Shown piece by piece: positions 16,659 through 35,051 of a stretch of 45,546 nt of DNA; the stretch's first letter is position 1, and each line of letters opens with the position of its first letter. A program made the position numbers and the translations under genes. The notes beneath the pieces were generated by a model. It had not been told where the DNA came from and ran no database searches. It saw only the letters and a program-made list of their open reading frames with translations. Origin of the DNA: an uncultured bacterium (lineage in GTDB: Bacteria; Bacillota; Clostridia; Lachnospirales; Lachnospiraceae). The stretch spans positions 1 to 45,546 of the forward strand of contig CANRWP010000025.1 in NCBI GenBank assembly GCA_947643595.1, written 5' to 3'.

Positions 16659-19394
16659 ATGGGACAGATTTTTTTAAAGGTATTGAATATGGGACTGACG
16701 GCGAGCTGGCTGATCCTGGCGGTGATGATCCTGCGGCTTTTTCTGAAAAGGGCGCCCCGGTGGACCGCCTGTCTGCTGTGGGCGCTGGTGGCGCTTAAAC
16801 TGATCTGCCCTTTTTCGATCGAGAGCGCTCTGAGTCTGATTCCGAGCAGTGAGCCTCTGCCGGAAAAGATCATGACCGGAAATACGTTTCAGGTGGATAC
16901 GGGGATCGGTTTTGTGGATGTTCCGGTGAACGATTATCTGGGGGATCATTATTATGAAGGGGTCACTGTACCGCTTGACAACGGAAATCGTGTGATGAAT
17001 GCGCTTGGCGTCATTTGGATAACAGGCGTTATCATAATGCTTTTGTACAGTTTTGTCAGTTGTTACAGGCTGTACCGGATCACCAGGGCGTCCATTTGTC
17101 TGAGAGAGAACATATTTCAGTGCGACGGTATTGATACCCCTTTTATTCTGGGGATCGTCAGACCGCGCATCTATCTGCCGAGCGGGATGGAGAAGGAGCA
17201 GACGGAGTATGTGATCGCCCATGAGCGGGCGCATCTGAAAAGTCGGGATCACTGGTGGAAACCGGCGGGTTTTCTTCTGCTGTCAGTCTACTGGTTCCAG
17301 CCCTTATGCTGGGTCTCCTATATTCTGCTCAGCAGAGATATCGAGTTTGCCTGTGATGAGAAGGTGATCTGTGCGTTGAGCGGAGAGGGGAAGAAGGCGT
17401 ATGCGGAGGCGCTGCTCTCCTGCAGCATAAGACAGAATATGGTCACAGCCTGTCCGCTCGCCTTCGGGGAAGTGGGCGCAAAGGAGCGAATAAAAAACGT
17501 ACTGCACTACAAAAAACCGGCGTTTTGGGTTCTTCTGGCGGCGCTCTTTTGTTGTATCACAGCGGCGGTATGCTTCCTGACGGGACCCAAGGAAGAGGGG
17601 GAGAGTACCTCGACCGAGGAGGAGATTGCGGTCTATATGGAGGACGTGCGAATGCGCGCGGAATGGTATGCGAAAACGGCCTATGAGGAAGCGCTTGACG
17701 GTCCTTACAATTATGATTACAGGAGCTGGCGCGTCAAATACTGGGAAAAGTGTTACACTTATGATGATCTGGAGAGAAAGGTCTATGAGGTTTACCGGTT
17801 TGACTATGAATTTCTGAGCGGATCGCCGGAGGATGTGGTGCTCGCGGGCGGAATGTCCGTCTCGAAGGACGGCTGGGTGACGCCGGATTATCCGGACAGC
17901 AGGTATCTTGTCTATGAGAAGGATGGAGAACAGCGGGAGTTTGCGGTGATGCTGTTTGAAAACGACTGTGTGCCCGGGGATGAGGTGTTTACGGCGGATC
18001 TTCTGGCGGCGGTGCGGGAGCAGGAATCGGAGGATACTCAGAGCGCGGAGCTGACGGAGTTTGTGGAGCGCTGGACGGAGGCTTTCGTCGCCAGAGACGG
18101 CGAGAGCATCGCGGGTATGATGTCGGCGGAGCTTAGGGCGGAGGCCATGCCGGATTCGGACGGGTACAGCTTCGGCTTCTCAAGCCCCTGGCCGCGGGAT
18201 GTCGATGCGGACTGCTTTTTTCAAATCTATGAGGAAGAGCAGAACCGGGCGGAAATCTACTACTATGCGCACACCTCGGATCCCCATGTCACCTGCTTGA
18301 GGGAGATACTGTGGCTTGGATGGGAAAATGACAGCTGTGTCGTGACAAGGAAAGAACTGAACTGGTATGAGGATATTGACACGGCGAAGGAATTTAGAGA
18401 GGCGTACACATCCTGGGGTTCTCTCGACGGGAGCAGGATGGATTACACGAAAAACGGCCTGGGGGAGACGTTAAATGAGAATGCGCTGCTCTCCAGCAGT
18501 ATGGCGTATCAAGATCTCTTTGAGCCAAAGAGCGCCGCCGCCTTTCTCTTAAATCTGTCCGACGATCCGAATAAGGTGCGGTACACGCTGCACGAGCCGG
18601 AGGGAAGCGGGCTTGTGGGACTGGATATCACCTTTTTGGAGGATAGGGAAACCTTTACGATCAGCATGTTTCAGCCCTACGGGGAAAACGGGATCTGGGT
18701 GCCGGTGGATGAGCGGATAGACGTGGTCGCAAGAATGATGAAAATAGACCGCGAGGAATGGAGCGGGTTTTGTATCGGAGAGATTCCGGAGCAGGAGATC
18801 AGGCTCTATGGCTATAACGACGAGGAAGTCGAGGACCGCGGCGTCGCGTTGGAGGTGGGGGAGGACGTATACTATTTTGACTGGTATTATACGAGCCCAA
18901 GAGACAGATTGCCGGAGTTGTACTGGGATGAAGAGAGGCAGGAACTGCAGATTTCCTGCGAAATTTATACAGGAACCGGCATTTCGGCGGAGGAATTTCA
19001 TATCCTGCGGATCGGTGACAATACAGTACAGGAGAGCCATTTCAGCCTGGAGGATTACTGCGCCATTCTGGAGGAGCGGATCGATTGGAGTTTTGATGAG
19101 GAGACCAGAAACCTTATCCTGACGGATAAAAAGAGCGGGGAAGCATTGCAGGCGGTGGCCATTCCGGAGGAACAGGGGGATAAAGTATCAGGTGTGGAAC
19201 TTGGAATGATATCCGGCTTTTCTCCCGGAAAACAAATAGATTTTCATGTCTATACGGGATACTATGTGGATGACTGGATCGGTGTGGCCGAGTATGAGAA
19301 TATGCCATGGCTTTTGTTTGAGGTGGTGACTGAGCGGAGGGAGAACGGAGATATCACTTTCGGGTTGGGGGAGTTGATAACATGGAGCGTGTGA
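16659..19394 (+). CDS. M56-family (BlaR1-like) metalloprotease with very large extracytoplasmic C-terminal region
   Basis: A 911-residue membrane protein. Residues 1-310 form the BlaR1 core: N-terminal helices, HERAH at residues 188-192 (zinc protease), FACDEKVI after it, and a final helix near residue 288 (PAFWVLLAALFCCITAAVCFL). About 590 extracytoplasmic residues follow, rich in acidic and aromatic residues, with no SxxK/KTG penicillin-binding signature. The segment near residue 465 (ELTEFVERWTEAFVARDGESIAGMMS) looks like the start of an NTF2-like domain; the rest is unassigned. It is far longer than BlaR1 (about 600). It presumably senses an extracellular signal and cleaves the upstream repressor. 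Confidence 0.82.
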   Translation: MGQIFLKVLNMGLTASWLILAVMILRLFLKRAPRWTACLLWALVALKLICPFSIESALSLIPSSEPLPEKIMTGNTFQVDTGIGFVDVPVNDYLGDHYYEGVTVPLDNGNRVMNALGVIWITGVIIMLLYSFVSCYRLYRITRASICLRENIFQCDGIDTPFILGIVRPRIYLPSGMEKEQTEYVIAHERAHLKSRDHWWKPAGFLLLSVYWFQPLCWVSYILLSRDIEFACDEKVICALSGEGKKAYAEALLSCSIRQNMVTACPLAFGEVGAKERIKNVLHYKKPAFWVLLAALFCCITAAVCFLTGPKEEGESTSTEEEIAVYMEDVRMRAEWYAKTAYEEALDGPYNYDYRSWRVKYWEKCYTYDDLERKVYEVYRFDYEFLSGSPEDVVLAGGMSVSKDGWVTPDYPDSRYLVYEKDGEQREFAVMLFENDCVPGDEVFTADLLAAVREQESEDTQSAELTEFVERWTEAFVARDGESIAGMMSAELRAEAMPDSDGYSFGFSSPWPRDVDADCFFQIYEEEQNRAEIYYYAHTSDPHVTCLREILWLGWENDSCVVTRKELNWYEDIDTAKEFREAYTSWGSLDGSRMDYTKNGLGETLNENALLSSSMAYQDLFEPKSAAAFLLNLSDDPNKVRYTLHEPEGSGLVGLDITFLEDRETFTISMFQPYGENGIWVPVDERIDVVARMMKIDREEWSGFCIGEIPEQEIRLYGYNDEEVEDRGVALEVGEDVYYFDWYYTSPRDRLPELYWDEERQELQISCEIYTGTGISAEEFHILRIGDNTVQESHFSLEDYCAILEERIDWSFDEETRNLILTDKKSGEALQAVAIPEEQGDKVSGVELGMISGFSPGKQIDFHVYTGYYVDDWIGVAEYENMPWLLFEVVTERRENGDITFGLGELITWSV

Positions 19395-23908: not shown

Positions 23909-25096
23909 ATGGGAATGGTTAAAAGCGGAAAAAACAGGGGAAAGTGGCTGGCCCTGACGCTCGCGGCGGTCATTGCTGTGGGAAGCATCCTGCCTGTCCG
24001 GGCGGCAGGGCCGGAGATCACCGCACCGTCGGCGATCGTGGTGGAGGCTTCCACAGGGCAGGTTGTCTATGAGAAGAATGCGGAGGAGAGAAGAAGTCCG
24101 GCCAGCATCACCAAGATCATGACCCTGCTGATTATTTTTGATTATCTGGACAACGGAAAGGTAAAACTGGAAGATGAAGTGCGGACTTCGGCCCATGCAC
24201 AGTCCATGGGCGGATCTCAGGTCTTTCTGGAGGAGGGGGAGATCCAGACATTGGATACGCTGATCAAATGTATCGCGGTGGCGTCCGGCAACGATGCGGC
24301 CGTGGCGGCGGCGGAGCATGTGGCGGGAAGTGAGGAGGAGTTTGTCTATCTGATGAATCAGAGAGCGGCATCCCTCGGTATGGAAAATACGCACTTTGAG
24401 GATTGCTGCGGTCTGACGGATTCCGACGGACACTATACGACGGCGAGGGATGTGGCGATCATGTCCAGAGAGCTGATCACAAAATATCCGGAGATCTACG
24501 ATTATACGGGGATCTGGATGGAAGATATCACGCATACGACAAACAGAGGGTCGGAGACCTTTACGCTGTCCAGCACCAACAAGCTGCTGAAAAGCTATGA
24601 GTGGGCGACCGGATTAAAGACCGGCTCCACCAGCAAGGCGAAATTTTGTCTTTCCGCCACGGCGAAAAAGGACAATATGGAGATGATCGCGGTGGTGATG
24701 GGCGCGGAGGAGGGGAAGATCCGGTTTTCCGAGGCGATCACGCTGCTTAGCTACGGCTACAGTGTAAGCCATATCTACGAGGATAAGAACGAGGATATTC
24801 TGCCGGATGTGCCGATCAAAGGCGCCATAGTGGAGAAGGCGGAGGTCGCCTACCAGGGACCATTCCGCTATCTGGATATCACCGGACAGAATCTGGACGG
24901 TGTGGAGAAGATCATCTCTTTGCCGGAGCAGGTACAGGCGCCGGTGAAGGCCGGAGATACGGCCGGGGAGGTCATTTATCTGCTCGCCGGGAATAAGCTG
25001 GGAAGCGTTCCGATCCTGTTTAAGGAGGATATTCCCAAAGCGGTTTACCGGGATTTTGTGAGGAAAGCTTTTCAGGAGTTTTTGCTGTCGGCCTGA
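23909..25096 (+). CDS. Serine D-Ala-D-Ala carboxypeptidase (DacF-like), first of two
   Basis: A 395-residue secreted or membrane-attached penicillin-binding protein that trims the terminal D-Ala of peptidoglycan peptides. A signal peptide (WLALTLAAVIAVGSILPVRAA) ends near residue 33. S66-I-T-K69 is the catalytic SxxK, ASGNDAA the SxN motif near 130, and LKTGSTSKA the KTG motif near 237. The C-terminal beta domain (PES-type PBP5_C) follows, ending with a probable amphipathic anchor FRKAFQEFLLSA. It lies 58 bases after trmD and upstream of a metallophosphoesterase gene with its own promoter. Confidence 0.94.
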   Translation: MGMVKSGKNRGKWLALTLAAVIAVGSILPVRAAGPEITAPSAIVVEASTGQVVYEKNAEERRSPASITKIMTLLIIFDYLDNGKVKLEDEVRTSAHAQSMGGSQVFLEEGEIQTLDTLIKCIAVASGNDAAVAAAEHVAGSEEEFVYLMNQRAASLGMENTHFEDCCGLTDSDGHYTTARDVAIMSRELITKYPEIYDYTGIWMEDITHTTNRGSETFTLSSTNKLLKSYEWATGLKTGSTSKAKFCLSATAKKDNMEMIAVVMGAEEGKIRFSEAITLLSYGYSVSHIYEDKNEDILPDVPIKGAIVEKAEVAYQGPFRYLDITGQNLDGVEKIISLPEQVQAPVKAGDTAGEVIYLLAGNKLGSVPILFKEDIPKAVYRDFVRKAFQEFLLSA

Positions 25097-27510: not shown

Positions 27511-28758
27511 ATGAAGAGAAAAAAGAGCAGAGGGAAAATAATAACACTTGTTATCACTATGTTGGTGGGGATTCTGCCTTACCGGACGGTACAGGCAGAA
27601 CAGACAAACCTTGATTTATACGCCCGGGGAGCGGTACTTATGGACGCTGATTCCGGGCGCGTTTTATATGGAAAAGAGGCGGATGTCGCATTGCCGATGG
27701 CGAGTACGACGAAGATCATGACCTGTATTCTGGCGTTGGAGAGAGGAAACCTGGAGGACGAGGTGGAGGTTTCTTCCTATGCGGCATCCCAGCCCCAGGT
27801 GCATCTGGGTATGAGCAAAGGGGAAAGTTTTTATCTGAGAGATCTCCTGTTTTCGCTGATGCTGGAATCCCACAATGATTCGGCGGTGGCAATCGCAGAA
27901 CATATCGGCGGTTCCGTGGAGGATTTCGCGAAGCTGATGAACGAAAAGGCGGAAGAGATCGGCTGCAGCGATACGCACTTTATCACGCCGAATGGTCTGG
28001 ATGCTGTGGAAATGATAGACGGCGCGGAAGTGCGGCATTCGACGACTGCCAGAGATCTGGCGCTGATCATGCGTTACTGTATTATGGAGTCACCTGAGAA
28101 GGAGGGGTTTCTGGAGATTACTGGGGCGGCAAACTACAGTTTTGCAAACCGCCAGGGGAGCCGCAGCTACAGCTGTACAAACCACAACGCGTTTCTGAAT
28201 ATGATGGATGGCGCGCTCTCAGGGAAGACCGGTTTTACCGGCGGAGCGGGATACTGCTATGTGGGGGCGCTGCGGCGGGAGGACAGAACCTTTATCGTGG
28301 CGCTTCTCGCCTGCGGGTGGCCGAACCATAAGACATATAAATGGGTGGACACAAGAAAACTCATGGAGTACGGCCTGAATAATTATGAATACCAGAATAT
28401 CTATAAGACCGTGGAGGTAAAGCCGGTAAAGGTTCTGGAGGGGCAGCCTTTCGGGGAGCGTTTCGACCCCTATGCAGAAGTGGCAGTGGAAGTGGAGATG
28501 CGGGCAAAGGAAGGAGATAAGAACGAAGGGGAGCTGAATTTTCTGCTTTCCGTACAGGACGAGATAAAGATCGACGTAACTTACGCGGGAGAAATCAGTG
28601 CGCCGGTGGAAAAAGGAAGAACAGTGGGGAGAATAGTATATAATGTAAACGATGAACCGGTGAAGGAGTACGAGTTGGTGTTGAAAGACAGTGTGAAACG
28701 GAAAGACTGGCGTTATATGGGAAGATATATATGGCAGGAATTTCTGCTTGCCGCCTGA
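27511..28758 (+). CDS. Serine D-Ala-D-Ala carboxypeptidase (DacF-like), second of two
   Basis: A 415-residue exported D,D-carboxypeptidase. The signal peptide (ITLVITMLVGILPYRTVQAE) ends near residue 29. S65-T-T-K68 is the catalytic SxxK, ESHNDSA the SxN near residue 121, and SGKTGFTGGAG the KTG motif near 237. The C-terminal domain ends in WQEFLLAA, similar to the first copy's QEFLLSA anchor. It differs from the first in the HxTTARDLALIMRYC region and overall sequence, so it is an old paralogue. In Firmicutes, DacF next to scpAB is common. Confidence 0.94.
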   Translation: MKRKKSRGKIITLVITMLVGILPYRTVQAEQTNLDLYARGAVLMDADSGRVLYGKEADVALPMASTTKIMTCILALERGNLEDEVEVSSYAASQPQVHLGMSKGESFYLRDLLFSLMLESHNDSAVAIAEHIGGSVEDFAKLMNEKAEEIGCSDTHFITPNGLDAVEMIDGAEVRHSTTARDLALIMRYCIMESPEKEGFLEITGAANYSFANRQGSRSYSCTNHNAFLNMMDGALSGKTGFTGGAGYCYVGALRREDRTFIVALLACGWPNHKTYKWVDTRKLMEYGLNNYEYQNIYKTVEVKPVKVLEGQPFGERFDPYAEVAVEVEMRAKEGDKNEGELNFLLSVQDEIKIDVTYAGEISAPVEKGRTVGRIVYNVNDEPVKEYELVLKDSVKRKDWRYMGRYIWQEFLLAA

Positions 28759-28836: not shown

Positions 28837-28865
28837 TTGACTTTTGTCATGGATAGGGTTACAAT
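28837..28865 (+). promoter_or_regulatory. Strong sigma-A promoter of the repeat-protein gene
   Basis: TTGACT (28837-28842, 5/6) and TACAAT (28860-28865, 5/6) are separated by exactly 17 bases. The start codon is 51 bases after the -10, with AAGGAAGG before it. Confidence 0.8.
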
Positions 28866-28916
28866 TTTGGTGGGTGAAAAACCGGATTATATAACATTAA
28901 AGGAAGGGTGAATGAG

Positions 28917-29546
28917 ATGAAAAAAATGAGCATCATCAAAAAACTCAGCGCTACAGCGGTTGTTGCAGCTATGCTTGTTAGCATGTTCGGTATGACTGTA
29001 TCTGCAGCTGGTAAGGCAACATTAGAGGAGCAGGCAGCGATCGCAGCGCGCAAAGCGGCGGAAGCAGCAGCAGCTCTGGCAGAGCAGCAGGAGATCGTAG
29101 TGAGAAAGAGTTCTGAAAAAGCGGACGCTATGTCTGAAAAGGTTGATATCCAGGCGCGTCTGGATGCGGATGCAGCGGCTGTACTGGCAGAGAAGATCGC
29201 AATTCTGCAGGCTAAGGGCGGCGACGCAGCATTATTGGCAGAGCAGCTCGCAACTCTGGAACGTCTGAGCGCAGAAGAACTGGCAGCACTTCAGGAAAAG
29301 ATTGATATTCTGGCACGTGAAGATGCGGAAGCAGCAGCAGTTCTTGCTGAGAAGCTTGCTATTCTTCAGGGCAAATCCGATAATTCCGCTCTGACAGCAG
29401 AGCAGCTCGCAACTCTGGAGCGCAAGAATTCGGATGCAGTGGCAGCACTTCAGGAGAAGATCGCTATCCTTGAGCGCAAGCAGGCGGAAGCAGCAGCAGT
29501 GCTCGCTGAGAAAGAAGCTATTGCAGCTCGCAAGGCTTCCGAATAG
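28917..29546 (+). CDS. Secreted alanine-rich protein built of ten 17-18-residue helical repeats
   Basis: A 209-residue protein of no named family known to me. Residues 1-32 are a signal peptide (basic IIKKL, hydrophobic AVVAAMLVSMFGM, cleavage near VSAA). The other 177 residues divide without remainder into ten tandem repeats of 17 or 18 residues, loosely AAAVLAEKxAILxRKxAE. Units 4-6 (residues 86-138) and 7-9 (139-191) form a duplicated 53-residue block. The mature part has no Cys, His, Pro or aromatic residue, pointing to a long helix or coiled coil. GTG at 28908 could start it, but AAGGAAGG fits ATG 28917. It has its own promoter and terminator, upstream of the decarboxylase cluster. There is no sortase motif or later membrane helix. 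Confidence 0.85.
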   Translation: MKKMSIIKKLSATAVVAAMLVSMFGMTVSAAGKATLEEQAAIAARKAAEAAAALAEQQEIVVRKSSEKADAMSEKVDIQARLDADAAAVLAEKIAILQAKGGDAALLAEQLATLERLSAEELAALQEKIDILAREDAEAAAVLAEKLAILQGKSDNSALTAEQLATLERKNSDAVAALQEKIAILERKQAEAAAVLAEKEAIAARKASE

Positions 29547-29581: not shown

Positions 29582-29616
29582 ACAGCATCGGCTGCGGAGG
29601 CCGGTGCTGTTTTTTT
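29582..29616 (+). terminator. Rho-independent terminator of the repeat-protein gene
   Basis: ACAGCATCGGC (29582-29592) pairs with GCCGGTGCTGT (29600-29610), with one G-U pair, around a 7-base loop, followed by seven T residues. Confidence 0.93.
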
Positions 29617-29746: not shown

Positions 29747-31174
29747 ATGGGCACTACTTCAAAAGCGAGCCAAAGAATTACAGCTTTGCTCGATGAAAAC
29801 AGTTTCGTTGAAATTGGTGCGCTTGTAACAGCAAGAGCTACTGATTTTGATCTGAAACAGACAGAGACTCCTTCTGATGGTGTTATCACAGGATATGGAG
29901 TGATTGACGGTAATCTTGTATATGTATACAGTCAGGATGCGGCCGTGTTGAACGGATCCGTGGGCGAGATGCATGCAAAGAAGATTACAAACCTCTATGA
30001 CCTGGCCATGAAGACCGGAGCACCGGTGATCGGTCTGATCGATTCTGCTGGACTGAGATTACAGGAGGGCGCTGATGCGCTCAATGCGTTCGGTGAGATC
30101 TATAGCAAGCAGGTTATGGCCAGCGGCATGATTCCGCAGATCACTGCGATCTTTGGAAATTGCGGCGGCGGTATTGCTATTTTCCCGACTCTGACAGATT
30201 TTACCTTTATGGAAAAGGCAAAGGCAAAACTGTTTGTCAATTCTCCGAATGCCATCGATGGAAATGAGATCAGCAAATGCGATACTTCCGCGGCGGCTTT
30301 CCAGAGCGAAGAGGCAGGCATTGTGGATGTGGTGGCAGAAGAGGATGAGATTTACGGAAAAATCCGTGAACTGATCGGTTTCTTACCGGCTAACTGTGAC
30401 GACGAGGCAGTATCCGATTGTACGGACGACCTGAACAGGGCTTCCGCGGAGCTGGCAAACTGTGTGGGAGATACCTCTATCGCTCTGTCTCAGATTGCGG
30501 ATGACGGCGTATTTTTTGAGACGAAAGCAGACTACGGCAAGAATATGGTGACCGGCTTTATCAGACTGGACGGCATCACGGTGGGCTGTGTGGCGAACCG
30601 CACGGAAGTTTATGATGAGGAGGGCAATGTGGCAGAAAAGTTTGACGCGGTGCTTTCCCCGAGAGGCTGTGAGAAAGCTGCTTCCTTTGTGAAGTTCTGC
30701 GATGCTTTTGATATCCCTGTCCTGACGTTGACGAATGTTAAGGGTTACGCCGCTACCAAGTGTGCGGAGAAGCGCATGGCAAAGGCGGTGGCACAGATGA
30801 CGGCGGCTTTTGCGGAAGCGACTGTTCCGAAAATAAACGTGATCATTGGTCAGGCTTACGGCAGCGCTTATGTGGCTATGAATTCCAGGGCGATCGGTGC
30901 GGATATGACTTTTGCATGGCCTGATGCCGAGATCGGTTCCATGGACGCGAAACATGCGGCACAGATCATGTATGACGGAAAAGGTGCAGATGTGATCAGT
31001 GAGAAAGCGGCTGAGTACGCAAAGCTTCAGGCCAGCGTACAGGGCGCAGCGAGAAGAGGATATGTGGACAGCATTATCGAAGCGGCGGATACGAGAAAAT
31101 ACGTGATCGGCGCGCTGGAGATGCTCTATACAAAGAAAGAAGACTGTCCGGACAAGAAACATGGAACGGTCTAG
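29747..31174 (+). CDS. Biotin-dependent carboxyltransferase subunit, MmdA/12S-like
   Basis: A 475-residue crotonase-fold carboxyltransferase, related to the alpha subunit of methylmalonyl-CoA decarboxylase and the 12S subunit of transcarboxylase. SDGVITGYGVIDGNLVYVYSQD and GGSVGEMHAKK-type N-domain features are followed by the LIDSAGLRLQEG oxyanion turn and IFGNCGGGIAIFPTLTDF; the C-domain has VLTLTNVKGY, IIGQAYGSAYVAMNSRAIGAD and FAWPDAEIGSMDAKHAAQIMY. It is slightly shorter than MmdA (about 510). The acyl-CoA partner cannot be read with certainty; methylmalonyl- or malonyl-CoA is likely. It is first in a five-gene cluster. Confidence 0.85.
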   Translation: MGTTSKASQRITALLDENSFVEIGALVTARATDFDLKQTETPSDGVITGYGVIDGNLVYVYSQDAAVLNGSVGEMHAKKITNLYDLAMKTGAPVIGLIDSAGLRLQEGADALNAFGEIYSKQVMASGMIPQITAIFGNCGGGIAIFPTLTDFTFMEKAKAKLFVNSPNAIDGNEISKCDTSAAAFQSEEAGIVDVVAEEDEIYGKIRELIGFLPANCDDEAVSDCTDDLNRASAELANCVGDTSIALSQIADDGVFFETKADYGKNMVTGFIRLDGITVGCVANRTEVYDEEGNVAEKFDAVLSPRGCEKAASFVKFCDAFDIPVLTLTNVKGYAATKCAEKRMAKAVAQMTAAFAEATVPKINVIIGQAYGSAYVAMNSRAIGADMTFAWPDAEIGSMDAKHAAQIMYDGKGADVISEKAAEYAKLQASVQGAARRGYVDSIIEAADTRKYVIGALEMLYTKKEDCPDKKHGTV

Positions 31175-31190
31175 AAAGGATGCTTCGTAT

Positions 31191-31961
31191 ATGAAAAAGA
31201 AACTTTTGATATGTCTTGCCATGCTTGTCTGCATCCTCGGTTTAACAGCTTGTGGTCAGGAAATGACAGAAAACAGCTTTATCGACAAAGACAGTGCGAA
31301 ACAGTCTGCGGAGATGACATGTGAACAGATCGCCAACTTGCAGCAGATGCTTGACGCATACGGCGTCGGCATGGCTGAATATGTAGAGATGAGCGGCGGA
31401 AATCCGGAGGACGCGGCGCTTGATATCGCGGCGATGGACAGCTGGAACGCGGCATCGGAAGAGTTTGGCAGCTTTGTTTCTATTTTGAGCGACGAGACAG
31501 AGGTCACGATCACAGAGGATAAGGCCGATGTCAAGGTGAAGATACAGGGCGACAAGGTATATAAAGGCAATAAACAGAGAACGGCTACCGTGGAGATCGT
31601 AATTACGGAGAAAGGCTATGACAGTATCAGCGTCTCGGCAGATTATGATATGAGCGAACTGATGACCAAAGCAGCTCTCAACACACTGCTTGGCATGGGA
31701 ACCGTGTTTGCGGTACTGGTTCTGATCTCTCTTCTGATCTCCTGTTTTAATTTTATTCCGAAGATCCAGGAGAAATTCAGGAAGAAACCTGCACAGACAG
31801 AGAGTGCGCCGGCAGCTGCAAAGGCAGTACAGCCGACGGTGGTTGTGGAGGAGGATTCAGATGATACGGAGCTGGTAGCAGTGATCGCGGCGGCGATCGC
31901 GGCAAGTGAAGGGGCTGTATCAGCTGATGGTTATGTGGTAAGGTCTATTATCAGACGATAA
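31191..31961 (+). CDS. OadG/MmdD-like gamma subunit with an N-terminal lipoprotein domain
   Basis: A 256-residue membrane protein. Residues 1-21 are a lipoprotein signal (LLICLAMLVCILGLTAC, lipid Cys21). About 140 extracytoplasmic residues follow. A single membrane helix lies at about 163-187 (TVFAVLVLISLLISCF), then an Ala/Pro-rich cytoplasmic linker and the OadG tail DTELVAVIAAAIAAS...VVRSIIRR. Ordinary OadG/MmdD subunits are about 80-130 residues and start at the helix, so the lipoprotein half is extra. The frame opens at 31161 inside the previous gene; AAAGGA before ATG 31191 and the lipobox support the shorter start. The gamma subunit assembles the pump and binds the carboxyltransferase. 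Confidence 0.82.
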   Translation: MKKKLLICLAMLVCILGLTACGQEMTENSFIDKDSAKQSAEMTCEQIANLQQMLDAYGVGMAEYVEMSGGNPEDAALDIAAMDSWNAASEEFGSFVSILSDETEVTITEDKADVKVKIQGDKVYKGNKQRTATVEIVITEKGYDSISVSADYDMSELMTKAALNTLLGMGTVFAVLVLISLLISCFNFIPKIQEKFRKKPAQTESAPAAAKAVQPTVVVEEDSDDTELVAVIAAAIAASEGAVSADGYVVRSIIRR

Positions 31962-32005
31962 AAATAAAAGGAAAGAAATCACTCATAAATTCAGGAGGAA
32001 ATAAC

Positions 32006-32377
32006 ATGAAAAATTATACAATTACCGTAAACGGCAACGTATATGACGTAGTAGTAGAAGAGGGAGCATCCACAGGCGCAGCGCCGAAAGCAGCACCGGC
32101 GGCACCCAAGGCAGCGCCGAAGGCAGCACCGGCGGCGCCTAAGGCAGCGAGCGCAGGCGCAGGAAGCGTGAGAATTGAAGCAGGTGCGGCCGGCAAGGTG
32201 TTCAAGATCGAGGCGAGCGCGGGCCAGGCTGTGAAGAAAGGTGATGCAGTGGTAATTCTGGAAGCGATGAAGATGGAGATCCCTGTTGTGGCACCTCAGG
32301 ACGGCACTGTTGCAAGCATTGACGTGGCTGTGGGTGATCCTGTTGAGGCGGGTACACTGCTGGCAACTCTGAACTAG
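32006..32377 (+). CDS. Biotin carboxyl carrier protein (free-standing)
   Basis: A 123-residue carrier. The N-terminus (NYTITVNGNVYDVVVEE) resembles the strand that precedes such carriers, then comes a flexible Ala-Pro-Lys linker, and residues 53-123 form the biotinyl domain with EAMKM at 86-90, so Lys89 is biotinylated. It shuttles carboxyl groups between the carboxyltransferases and the OadB pump. AGGAGG precedes the ATG. No biotin carboxylase is in the cluster, consistent with a decarboxylase/transcarboxylase rather than an ATP-dependent carboxylase. Confidence 0.93.
   Translation: MKNYTITVNGNVYDVVVEEGASTGAAPKAAPAAPKAAPKAAPAAPKAASAGAGSVRIEAGAAGKVFKIEASAGQAVKKGDAVVILEAMKMEIPVVAPQDGTVASIDVAVGDPVEAGTLLATLN
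32081..32146 (+). repeat. 33-base tandem duplication in the carrier linker
   Basis: 32081-32113 and 32114-32146 both encode APKAAPAAPKA and differ at only a few third positions. It is a short coding duplication that lengthens the Ala-Pro hinge of the biotin carrier. Confidence 0.85.
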
Positions 32378-32426
32378 TGACAGTGTACAGATGCAGTAAT
32401 ATAATAAAACAACAGGAGGCTAAGAA

Positions 32427-33578
32427 ATGGATTATATTGTAACTACACTGGACAATCTGGTTCATCAGACGGCGTTCTTCAATCTGGAACCCGGAAACTA
32501 TGCGATGATCATTGTTGCCTGTGCATTTCTGTATCTTGCGATTGCCAAGGGCTTTGAACCATTACTTCTTACCCCGATCGCATTTGGCATGCTGCTGGTC
32601 AATATTTATCCGGATATTATGATAAGTATTGAGGAATCGGCCAACGGCGCTGGCGGTTTGCTGTATTATTTCTATTTGCTGGATGAGTGGGCGATCCTGC
32701 CGTCCCTGATCTTCATGGGGGTAGGCGCAATGACGGACTTCGGTCCCCTGATCGCCAATCCAAAGAGTTTTTTGCTGGGCGCGGCGGCACAGTTCGGTAT
32801 TTTCATGGCTTACTTCGGAGCGATCTGGATGGGCTTTAACGACAAGGCAGCCGCAGCTATTTCCATCATCGGCGGTGCGGACGGACCGACATCCATTTTC
32901 CTTGCGGGAAAACTGAGCCAGACGGCCATCCTCGGACCGATCGCAGTGGCGGCATATTCCTATATGTCTCTGGTACCGATCATTCAGCCGCCCATCATGA
33001 AACTGTTCACAACGAAGGAAGAACGTCAGATCAAGATGGCACAGCTGCGTCCGGTTTCCAAGCTAGAAAAGATCCTGTTCCCGGTTATCGTGACGATCGT
33101 TGTATGTATGATACTTCCCACAACGGCTCCGCTTGTCGGTATGCTGATGCTTGGCAATCTGTTCCGTGAGTCTGGCGTGGTGAGACAGCTCCAGGAGACA
33201 GCTTCCAACGCTTTAATGTATATTGTTGTTATCCTGCTCGGTACTTCTGTAGGAGCAACGACTTCCGCGGAGGCATTCTTAAACTGGGACACGATCAAGA
33301 TCGTCATCCTCGGCCTGGTGGCATTTGCTTTCGGCACGGCGGCAGGCGTGCTCTTCGGTAAACTGATGTGCAAGCTGACTCACGGCAAGGTAAATCCGTT
33401 AATCGGCTCTGCCGGTGTATCCGCAGTGCCTATGGCGGCGAGAGTTTCCCAGAAAGTGGGCGCAGAGGAGGATCCTACGAACTTCCTGCTGATGCACGCG
33501 ATGGGCCCTAACGTTGCGGGCGTTATCGGTACGGCAGTTGCAGCCGGAACCTTTATGGCTATCTTCGGTGTCTTTTAA
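32427..33578 (+). CDS. Sodium-ion-translocating decarboxylase beta subunit (OadB/MmdB/GcdB)
   Basis: A 383-residue integral membrane protein, with about nine to ten helices, that decarboxylates carboxybiotin and exports Na+. Diagnostic segments are GVGAMTDFGPLIANP, GAAAQFGIFMAYFGA, SIIGGADGPTSIF (with the essential Asp) and the C-terminal GAEEDPTNFLLMHAMGPNVAGVIGTAVAAG. It is full length. AGGAGG precedes the ATG, and it lies 49 bases after the carrier gene. The same beta subunit serves oxaloacetate, methylmalonyl-CoA or glutaconyl-CoA decarboxylases, so it does not by itself fix the substrate. Confidence 0.96.
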   Translation: MDYIVTTLDNLVHQTAFFNLEPGNYAMIIVACAFLYLAIAKGFEPLLLTPIAFGMLLVNIYPDIMISIEESANGAGGLLYYFYLLDEWAILPSLIFMGVGAMTDFGPLIANPKSFLLGAAAQFGIFMAYFGAIWMGFNDKAAAAISIIGGADGPTSIFLAGKLSQTAILGPIAVAAYSYMSLVPIIQPPIMKLFTTKEERQIKMAQLRPVSKLEKILFPVIVTIVVCMILPTTAPLVGMLMLGNLFRESGVVRQLQETASNALMYIVVILLGTSVGATTSAEAFLNWDTIKIVILGLVAFAFGTAAGVLFGKLMCKLTHGKVNPLIGSAGVSAVPMAARVSQKVGAEEDPTNFLLMHAMGPNVAGVIGTAVAAGTFMAIFGVF

Positions 33579-33623
33579 GCTTTGCACAGCTTATTCAGTA
33601 TAATAATATATGGAGGAAATAAC

Positions 33624-35051
33624 ATGTCAGAACTAAATAAAAAACCGGTTGGAATTACCGAGACAATACTGCGTGATGCCCACCAGTCTCTGATCGCTAC
33701 GAGAATGCCCACCGATCTGATGCTTCCCATCGTGGAAACCATGGATAAAGTCGGCTATCACTCTGTAGAGTGCTGGGGCGGCGCTACATTCGACGCATCC
33801 CTCAGATTTTTGAAAGAAGATCCCTGGGAGAGACTTCGCAAACTGAGGGACGGCTTCAAAAACACAAAGCTGCAGATGCTGTTCAGGGGACAGAATATCC
33901 TCGGCTACAGACCTTACGCGGACGACGTGGTAGACAGTTTCGTGGAGAAATCCATCGCGAACGGTATCGATATCATCCGTATTTTTGACTGCCTGAATGA
34001 TCTGAGGAACCTGCAGGAAGCGGTAAATGCTACCAACAAGATCAAAGCGAGAGAAGGCAGAGGCCATGCGCAGATCGCGCTCTCCTATACACTGGGCGAT
34101 GCGTACACACTGGAATACTGGGTGGACACCGCGAAGAAGATTGAGGAGATGGGTGCGGACTCCATCTGCATCAAGGATATGGCGGGGCTTCTGGTTCCCT
34201 ACAAGGCGGCGGAACTGATCGGCGCGATGAAAGAAGGAACGAAGCTTCCAATTCAGCTTCACACCCACTATACTTCCGGCGTGGCGAGCATGACTTACCT
34301 GAAGGCAGTGGAAGCGGGCGTGGACGTGATCGACTGCGCGATCTCTCCGTTTGCTCTGGGTACTTCCCAGCCGGCTACGGAGGTTATGGTTGAGACATTC
34401 AAGGGAACTCCCTATGATACGGGATTTGACCAGAATCTGCTCGCTGAGATCGCGGATTATTTCCGTCCCTACAGAGAGAAATGTCTGGAGACAGGACTGC
34501 TCAGCCCGAAGGTGCTCGGCGTGAATATTAAGACTCTGTTGTACCAGGTGCCCGGCGGTATGCTCTCCAACATGGTGAGCCAGCTCAAGGAGCAGAACGC
34601 AGAAGACAAGTACGAAGATGTGCTGCGTGAGATTCCGAACGTTCGTAAGGATCTCGGCGAGCCGCCTCTGGTTACGCCTTCTTCTCAGATTGTCGGTACA
34701 CAGGCAGTGTTTAACGTGCTGATGGGCGAGAGATACAAGATGGCTACCAAGGAGACGAAAGCTGTTCTGCGCGGTGAGTACGGCCAGACGATCAAGCCGA
34801 TGAGCCAGGAAGTCATCGACAAAGTTATTCCGGGCGAGGAAAGGATCACCTGCCGTCCCGCAGACCTGATCGAGAACGAGATGGATAAGCTGGAATCCGA
34901 GATGAAAGAGTGGAAACAGCAGGATGAGGATGTATTGTCCTATGCCCTCTTCCCTCAGGTTGCGATCGACTTCTTCAAGTACCGTCAGGCGCAGCAGGAG
35001 AAGGTGGATCTTTCTCAGGCGGATACGAAGAATGGTGCTTATCCGGTTTAA
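33624..35051 (+). CDS. Oxaloacetate decarboxylase/pyruvate carboxyltransferase subunit (OadA/5S-like, no biotin domain)
   Basis: A 475-residue TIM-barrel carboxyltransferase with a PYC_OADA C-terminal domain. ITETILRDAHQSLIATRM (metal-binding Asp and His), SICIKDMAGLLVPY (the Lys that is carbamylated) and LPIQLHTHYTSG (metal His pair) are intact. OadA normally carries a C-terminal biotinyl domain; this one ends after KVDLSQADTKNGAYPV, so it must use the separate carrier at 32006, like the 5S subunit of transcarboxylase. The frame opens at 33582, but GGAGG lies before ATG 33624. It is last in the cluster and followed by a strong terminator. Confidence 0.94.
   Translation: MSELNKKPVGITETILRDAHQSLIATRMPTDLMLPIVETMDKVGYHSVECWGGATFDASLRFLKEDPWERLRKLRDGFKNTKLQMLFRGQNILGYRPYADDVVDSFVEKSIANGIDIIRIFDCLNDLRNLQEAVNATNKIKAREGRGHAQIALSYTLGDAYTLEYWVDTAKKIEEMGADSICIKDMAGLLVPYKAAELIGAMKEGTKLPIQLHTHYTSGVASMTYLKAVEAGVDVIDCAISPFALGTSQPATEVMVETFKGTPYDTGFDQNLLAEIADYFRPYREKCLETGLLSPKVLGVNIKTLLYQVPGGMLSNMVSQLKEQNAEDKYEDVLREIPNVRKDLGEPPLVTPSSQIVGTQAVFNVLMGERYKMATKETKAVLRGEYGQTIKPMSQEVIDKVIPGEERITCRPADLIENEMDKLESEMKEWKQQDEDVLSYALFPQVAIDFFKYRQAQQEKVDLSQADTKNGAYPV

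Follow-up and report, generated by a model that had tools for sequence, protein, structure and literature searches.

Introduction

Repeated amphipathic helices with one hydrophobic half are a feature of apolipoprotein-type repeats, and the PvMSP3-type proteins, a family of eukaryotic parasites, form alanine-rich coiled coils at the cell surface that vary between the members. In honeybee silk, the fibroins AmelF1-4 contain a helical, alanine-rich region of about 210 residues and contact each other in a bifaceted interaction mode within a tetramer (PMC12284834). Coiled coils in which 18 residues span five turns, at 3.6 residues per turn, are described as the outcome of a stutter spread over heptads (7+7+4) (PMC4786415). 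Finally, the Pfam family CSLinker (PF24429) represents the Rubisco linker of Chlorella, which is largely disordered with helices of about 10 residues (PMC11570498).

We analysed a stretch of 45,546 nucleotides from an uncultured member of the Lachnospiraceae, here called the window, which carries a gene for a putative secreted protein built of helical repeats. Like the PvMSP3-type proteins, it is alanine-rich and varies between members; no homology is claimed. An alanine-rich helical region is also shared with AmelF1-4, and the silk is extracellular and has high alanine at contact positions (PMC12284834). The silk, according to the same source, has a two-residue (a, d) heptad core, an antiparallel tetramer of four proteins and unstructured flanks, whereas the window protein has an 18/5 unit, is a single protein and lacks flanks; the parallel is an analogy, and here too we claim no homology. 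With the 18/5 coiled coils the window protein shares the 3.6 residues per turn, its own core spacings being 17 and 18. In those proteins the periodicity occurs within a coiled coil that has one core seam, whereas here the whole mature chain consists of units, with a broad arc of I/L/V/M and a seam of alanine; the period itself is already in the coiled-coil literature, and the coiled coil need not be called unusual on this ground, as a preliminary description of this DNA had done (PMC4786415).

Results

The open reading frame at positions 28917-29546 (forward strand) encodes 209 amino acids. The preliminary description of a probably secreted repeat protein at this site was borne out in part: the gene is real, and its product comprises a putative signal peptide and 177 residues in ten units. 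The near-consensus promoter and the terminator of its own that had been attributed to the gene were likewise recovered (Table 1). The promoter is of the sigma-70 type and ends 51 bases upstream of the start codon. By-eye inspection of the alignment of the six genomes that bear the gene revealed an invariant -10 region (TACAAT) and 17-base spacer, and a -35 region that reads TTGACA in four and TTGACT in two genomes; in the other five genomes a hairpin also precedes a T-run, with a different stem sequence (by eye).

Table 1. Features of the window gene and its surroundings
Feature	Position	Strand	Basis
Promoter TTGACT-17-TACAAT	28837..28865	+	Scan, 10/12 matches
Conserved 5' leader with ribosome-binding site AAGGAAGGG (28900-28908)	28866..28916	+	Alignment
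Putative signal peptide, residues 1-32	28917..29012	+	By reading: n-region with KK, hydrophobic core and VSA site
Ten helical units of 17/18 residues that make up the mature chain, residues 33-209	29013..29543	+	Unit spacing, self-identity, 42-unit consensus
53-residue duplication, first copy, residues 77-129	29145..29303	+	37/53 amino acids identical to second copy, dS 1.41
Predicted turn 1, residues 100-102	29214..29222	+	AlphaFold2 break; low helix propensity; indel in G005
Possible turn, residues 116-118	29262..29270	+	AlphaFold2 only
53-residue duplication, second copy, residues 130-182	29304..29462	+	Copy comparison
Predicted turn 2, residues 154-156	29376..29384	+	AlphaFold2 break; low helix propensity at QGKSDNS
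Intrinsic terminator with a stem of 12 pairs followed by a T-run	29582..29610	+	Window scan

Two blocks of the leader, GGTGA..AACCG(G/A)ATTAT and AAG(G/A)AAGGGTGAA, are conserved in all six gene-bearing genomes, and the conservation of the leader between species exceeds the need of a ribosome-binding site. No Rfam family matched the leader at the gathering threshold. A DNA search with the leader gave a strong match at the known locus in six of the nine genomes of the genus and only short, weak matches elsewhere, the best of which covers 34 query bases in the relative G006 (E 4.8e-4). An in-frame GTG at 28908, three codons before the ATG, is likewise kept in the alignment. Because this GTG falls right on the ribosome-binding site, translation more likely begins at the ATG at 28917. 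Cleavage by signal peptidase might, by eye, occur after VSA-30 instead of G-32. The chain ends in ...AARKASE and, as had been claimed, has no cell-wall anchor: an LPXTG-type signal, with its C-terminal sorting motif and hydrophobic tail, is absent from the translation (by eye). The codon bias of the gene is unexceptional (0.67, range 0.46-0.74), and its own genome, which is 87% complete, contains one match to the protein. The estimated cost per residue, 18.8, is the lowest of 33 open reading frames in the window and is followed by a value of 21.7; the comparison took mechanically defined frames of at least 200 amino acids, antisense ones included, and omitted the signal peptide for this protein only.

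Residues 33-209 can be divided into units of 17, 18, 18, 18, 17, 18, 18, 17, 18 and 18 residues, exactly as first described. That this division leaves no remainder is weak evidence, because any chain of 170-180 residues can be cut into ten such units and because cleavage might occur after VSA-30 instead of G-32. The real evidence for the repeat is the regular 17/18 spacing of an [AQS]E[KQ] core. Moreover, the best self-identity at lags of 10-79 residues is 0.53 (lag 53), and none of 2000 shuffles exceeded 0.28; at lag 18 the identity is 0.33. The mature chain lacks F, W, Y, P, H and C, as had been noted, and the net charge is -10. The duplication of units 4-6 as units 7-9 exists, but the proposal that it is recent has to be given up because dS between the copies is 1.41 in the window protein, 0.97 in G006 and 0.44 in G008 and because these three orthologues have the duplication in common; the low value in G008 may result from gene conversion. 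The last unit does resemble the first, with 11 of 18 residues shared, but we rejected a special cap unit: unit 10 shares 11 of 18 residues with units 2, 4 and 7 as well.

The 42 units of four orthologues follow the pattern AAA[AVL]LAE[KQ][LI]AIL[EA]RK[DNG]AE. Its columns include E7 (42 of 42 units), A3 (37), L5 (33), A6 and I11 (32 each), A10 (30), A17 (29) and L12 (27), where neighbouring units share one residue if their spacing is 17. On an 18/5 helix, I/L/V/M occupy one half (positions 4, 5, 9, 11 and 12) with a lane of K/Q in the middle of the arc, and a seam of alanine runs along the opposite half (positions 3, 6, 10 and 17); pooled over the four orthologues, the opposite sector is mostly alanine (0.83-0.84). 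At 100 degrees per residue, the best half-arc holds 40 of 41 I/L/V/M residues in the window protein, 39 of 41 in G008, 39 of 40 in G006 and 46 of 47 in G005, counts reached by none of 3000 shuffles each, and 23 of 24 in the relative G004, reached by 12 of 3000; these shuffles destroy the repeats, so that one pattern is counted about ten times, and the segments were chosen after the composition had been seen. The two other wheel tests were negative for the window protein. Its mean Eisenberg moment over 18 residues (0.226) is not above that of shuffles (0.217 ± 0.026); the same holds for four of the five proteins, with values below the shuffle mean in three of the four relatives, and only G004 has a raised moment (0.232 against 0.192 ± 0.021). 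A Fourier test of 13 segments from four proteins gave no significant periodicity (shuffle p 0.08-0.91). A class A amphipathic helix of the apolipoprotein type would call for a high hydrophobic moment, which the window protein does not have.

AlphaFold2 places helices at residues 30-99, 103-115, 119-153 and 157-208 (70, 13, 35 and 52 residues). The model has low confidence and no confident tertiary fold (monomer, four sequences; mean pLDDT 66.1, pTM 0.30), and we used its secondary structure alone. A helical repeat in register with the alpha-helix, as originally proposed, is supported. The single straight long helix proposed along with it is not: composition, indel sites and AlphaFold2 all point to interruptions near residues 100 and 154, and the breaks fall at unit borders. 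Near residue 100, the core spacing in G005 is 19 instead of 17, with two extra residues. The chain is thus predicted to form several rods rather than one, since helix propensity, the extra residues of G005 and the AlphaFold2 breaks agree.

This is a conserved, real protein-coding gene under protein-level selection. Comparison with the closest relative, G001, revealed 13 synonymous and no nonsynonymous changes. In the three further pairs of equal length that we compared, dN/dS is 0.11-0.17, to be taken with caution as dS exceeds 1 in the pairs with the window gene. Units 1-3 have a higher dN than units 4-10, both for the window gene against G006 or G008 (0.31 versus 0.12) and for G008 against G006 (0.09 versus 0.04). 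Residues that belong to none of the named faces are less well conserved: over three orthologues, and with a grouping of positions chosen after the pattern had been seen, 21 of 40 such positions are identical, compared with 109 of 140 among the others.

Relatives are present in six of the nine genomes of the genus, and the same set is found with the window protein or the G004 protein as the query. The proteins have 209 amino acids in the window, G001, G006 and G008, 248 in G005, i. e. 39 more than the 209-residue form, and 310 in G004. The names of the neighbouring genes, including mmdA and the D,D-carboxypeptidase gene, are our assignments by recognition. The gene adjoins mmdA in all six gene-bearing genomes, and the carboxypeptidase gene lies on the other side in five of them; the contig of G005 ends about 190 bases upstream. 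The three genomes without the gene (G002, G003 and G007) have the two flanking genes side by side, and so does G030, a member of another genus that has the most similar mmdA (77%). No comparable reading frame was found upstream of mmdA in 21 genomes of other genera (coding strand, frames of at least 60 amino acids, by reading), and in seven of the 21 the carboxypeptidase gene lies directly upstream of mmdA (by reading). G002 is close to gene-bearing species yet lacks the gene. A poorly supported mmdA tree groups it with G003 and G007 (58); in a tree of six reading frames with missing data, it falls within the clade of the gene-bearing genomes, which has a support of 98, and the nodes around it reach 35-36. 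The simplest history, as far as these sequences indicate, would be one gain after the split from G003 and G007, with G002 representing a loss or an early branch.

Several further genes lie in the neighbourhood. Downstream (29747-35051) are genes for MmdA, a small membrane subunit, a biotin carrier, a membrane beta subunit and a carboxyltransferase, a cluster that presumably encodes a sodium-pumping decarboxylase. Within 5 kb, we take 23909-25096 and 27511-28758 to be D,D-carboxypeptidase-like genes that flank a putative phosphoesterase gene and scpA/scpB. Elsewhere in the window, a frame for 911 amino acids at 16659-19394 with a hydrophobic N-terminus presumably resembles the start of a BlaR1/MecR1-type sensor.

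The variant in G004 (L024:401-1330, minus strand) sits at the same locus and keeps the promoter, the leader and the signal peptide; from position 33 onwards it has 278 residues, of which 51% are alanine and few are I/L/V, and the identity at lag 18 is 0.48. G006, its neighbour in the trees (support 92 for mmdA and 93 for the six frames), keeps the ordinary form. Within one genus, then, the repeat can be rewritten without loss of the period or of the one-sided hydrophobic arc.

Among the genomes searched, the protein is restricted to one genus. Profile searches returned no convincing homologue outside the genus in the sampled genomes. With the signal peptide removed, the profile found only its own genome among 397 genomes of the family and three genomes among 391 of the class, none convincing besides its own; both sets are samples from larger groups, and only the candidates of a first look were scored in each search. 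The two other matches in the class are, as we recognize them, an exonuclease VII small subunit and a phage-type protein. A search of 299 genomes with the window protein matched its own genome and a protein in G242 that we take to be PspA-like. The latter was rejected as a homologue: the match (27% identity, E 3.3e-4) covers residues 73-190 only rather than the full length. By eye, this protein has no signal peptide. With the signal peptide included and E values up to 0.01, the profile matched 42 of the 397 genomes with 44 rows besides its own. The 29 rows inspected, those with a locus given, were rejected: by reading, they owe their match to the signal peptide or to low complexity and represent secreted proteins or lipoproteins that are unrelated, with a lag-18 identity of at most 0.17 in the matched frames; the 15 left out include one in G276 (positions 4-169). 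A scan of named genomes returned one locus, 600 pattern matches in viral contigs contained no relative, and plasmids gave no match. In PHROGs, three of the proteins reached E values of 0.01-0.015 to families of unknown function.

The statement that the protein belongs to no named family holds for the window protein, which has no Pfam match above the cut-off and no NCBIfam match; for four relatives, nothing in NCBIfam came near the cut-off. Against PDB sequences its best E value is 0.33, and the profile found none. In G005, the Pfam family Dict-STAT-coil scores 16.9 bits (cut-off 22). A match to a described family, which had been named as evidence against the first reading, was obtained formally but not in substance: CSLinker (cut-off 27 bits) scores 30.1 bits in G008, but 21.0 in G006, 13.9 in the window protein and 10.8 in G005, with no match in G004. 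The best stretch in G008 comprises 13 residues. Four scrambled or reversed G008 controls gave no CSLinker match at E 0.1, and the match thus depends on the order of the residues and not on composition alone. We read it as a short helical motif that is met repeatedly; binding of Rubisco in a pyrenoid we judge to be implausible for a secreted bacterial protein. In the literature, we found no bacterial protein of this design.

Discussion

We tentatively favour, at somewhat less than an even chance, the idea that the gene encodes a cheap extracellular structural protein with helices that pack by both faces. As suggested by its signal peptide, the product would be a secreted, all-helical structural protein, and the promoter points to a transcription that is probably strong. 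The helices, predicted by AlphaFold2 to be joined by short turns, would pack widely on the I/L/V/M face and closely on the alanine seam, and their partners may be helices of the same chain folding back on themselves or other copies. The product could then be a bundle, a fibre or a layer, in or outside the cell wall, and its retention without an anchor would rest on assembly or on binding to the wall. The period, the composition and the faces would be under selection, not the exact sequence, and the protein would serve as extracellular scaffold or coat material rather than as an enzyme. In favour of this reading we count the selection at the protein level, the promoter, leader and terminator kept in all six gene-bearing genomes, the single match in its own genome, the half-arc distribution and the unit columns, the predicted helices, the low cost and the G004 variant with its retained lag of 18. 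Against it we count the low confidence of the AlphaFold2 model, the unraised moment, the lack of significant periodicity by segment, the unexceptional codon bias and the absence of the gene from G002. It is tempting to speculate on a bacterial counterpart of helical silk, born in this genus, in which copies stack via their I/L/V/M and alanine faces into an extracellular fibre or sheet and selection acts on nothing but the period and the faces, so that the letters may be rewritten as in G004; in this specific form, we regard the idea as rather unlikely.

A different use of the same helices is conceivable, if unlikely: a monomeric up-and-down bundle that binds a specific partner such as a wall polymer, a surface protein or a host ligand, with the repeats as the rigid scaffold and the specificity in the variable units 1-3. 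The four helices predicted by AlphaFold2 and the higher dN of units 1-3 as compared to units 4-10 would fit such a bundle; the low pTM leaves no confident tertiary fold, however, no related solved chain was found by sequence, and the 39 additional residues of G005 and the 310-residue G004 protein with its rewritten repeat are hard to fit to one fixed bundle. The likeness to apolipoprotein-type repeats, i. e. repeated helices with a hydrophobic half, might instead suggest a protein of the apolipoprotein or surfactant type that binds lipids or interfaces, 18 residues being the ideal amphipathic period. We consider this improbable: although I/L/V/M are confined to half of the 18/5 wheel, the arc of the window protein, unlike that of apolipoprotein-type repeats, carries K/Q in its centre, its hydrophobic moment is no higher than in shuffles, the mature chain has no aromatic residues, and the net charge is -10.

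The protein could also be passive, a secreted filler, decoy or nutrient of which only solubility, helicity and low cost are demanded. Its composition is indeed the cheapest of the 33 frames compared, the gene is absent from G002, and G004 tolerates a wholesale change of sequence; nevertheless, the dN/dS values near 0.1, the glutamate at position 7 of all 42 units and the ordered faces leave this explanation only a slim chance. That the reading frame is spurious or a low-complexity artefact, as the lack of a family match above the cut-off for the window protein might suggest, is already contradicted by the 13 synonymous and no nonsynonymous changes and by the conservation of promoter, leader and terminator, and we regard it as next to impossible.

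If the structural reading is right, this is a young secreted protein whose helix period and two faces are maintained in evolution, with a sequence and a length that differ from one related species to another. It would thus provide a natural test of the minimum sequence that a self-assembling helical material needs, and it would mark a surface or matrix component that is specific for the genus.
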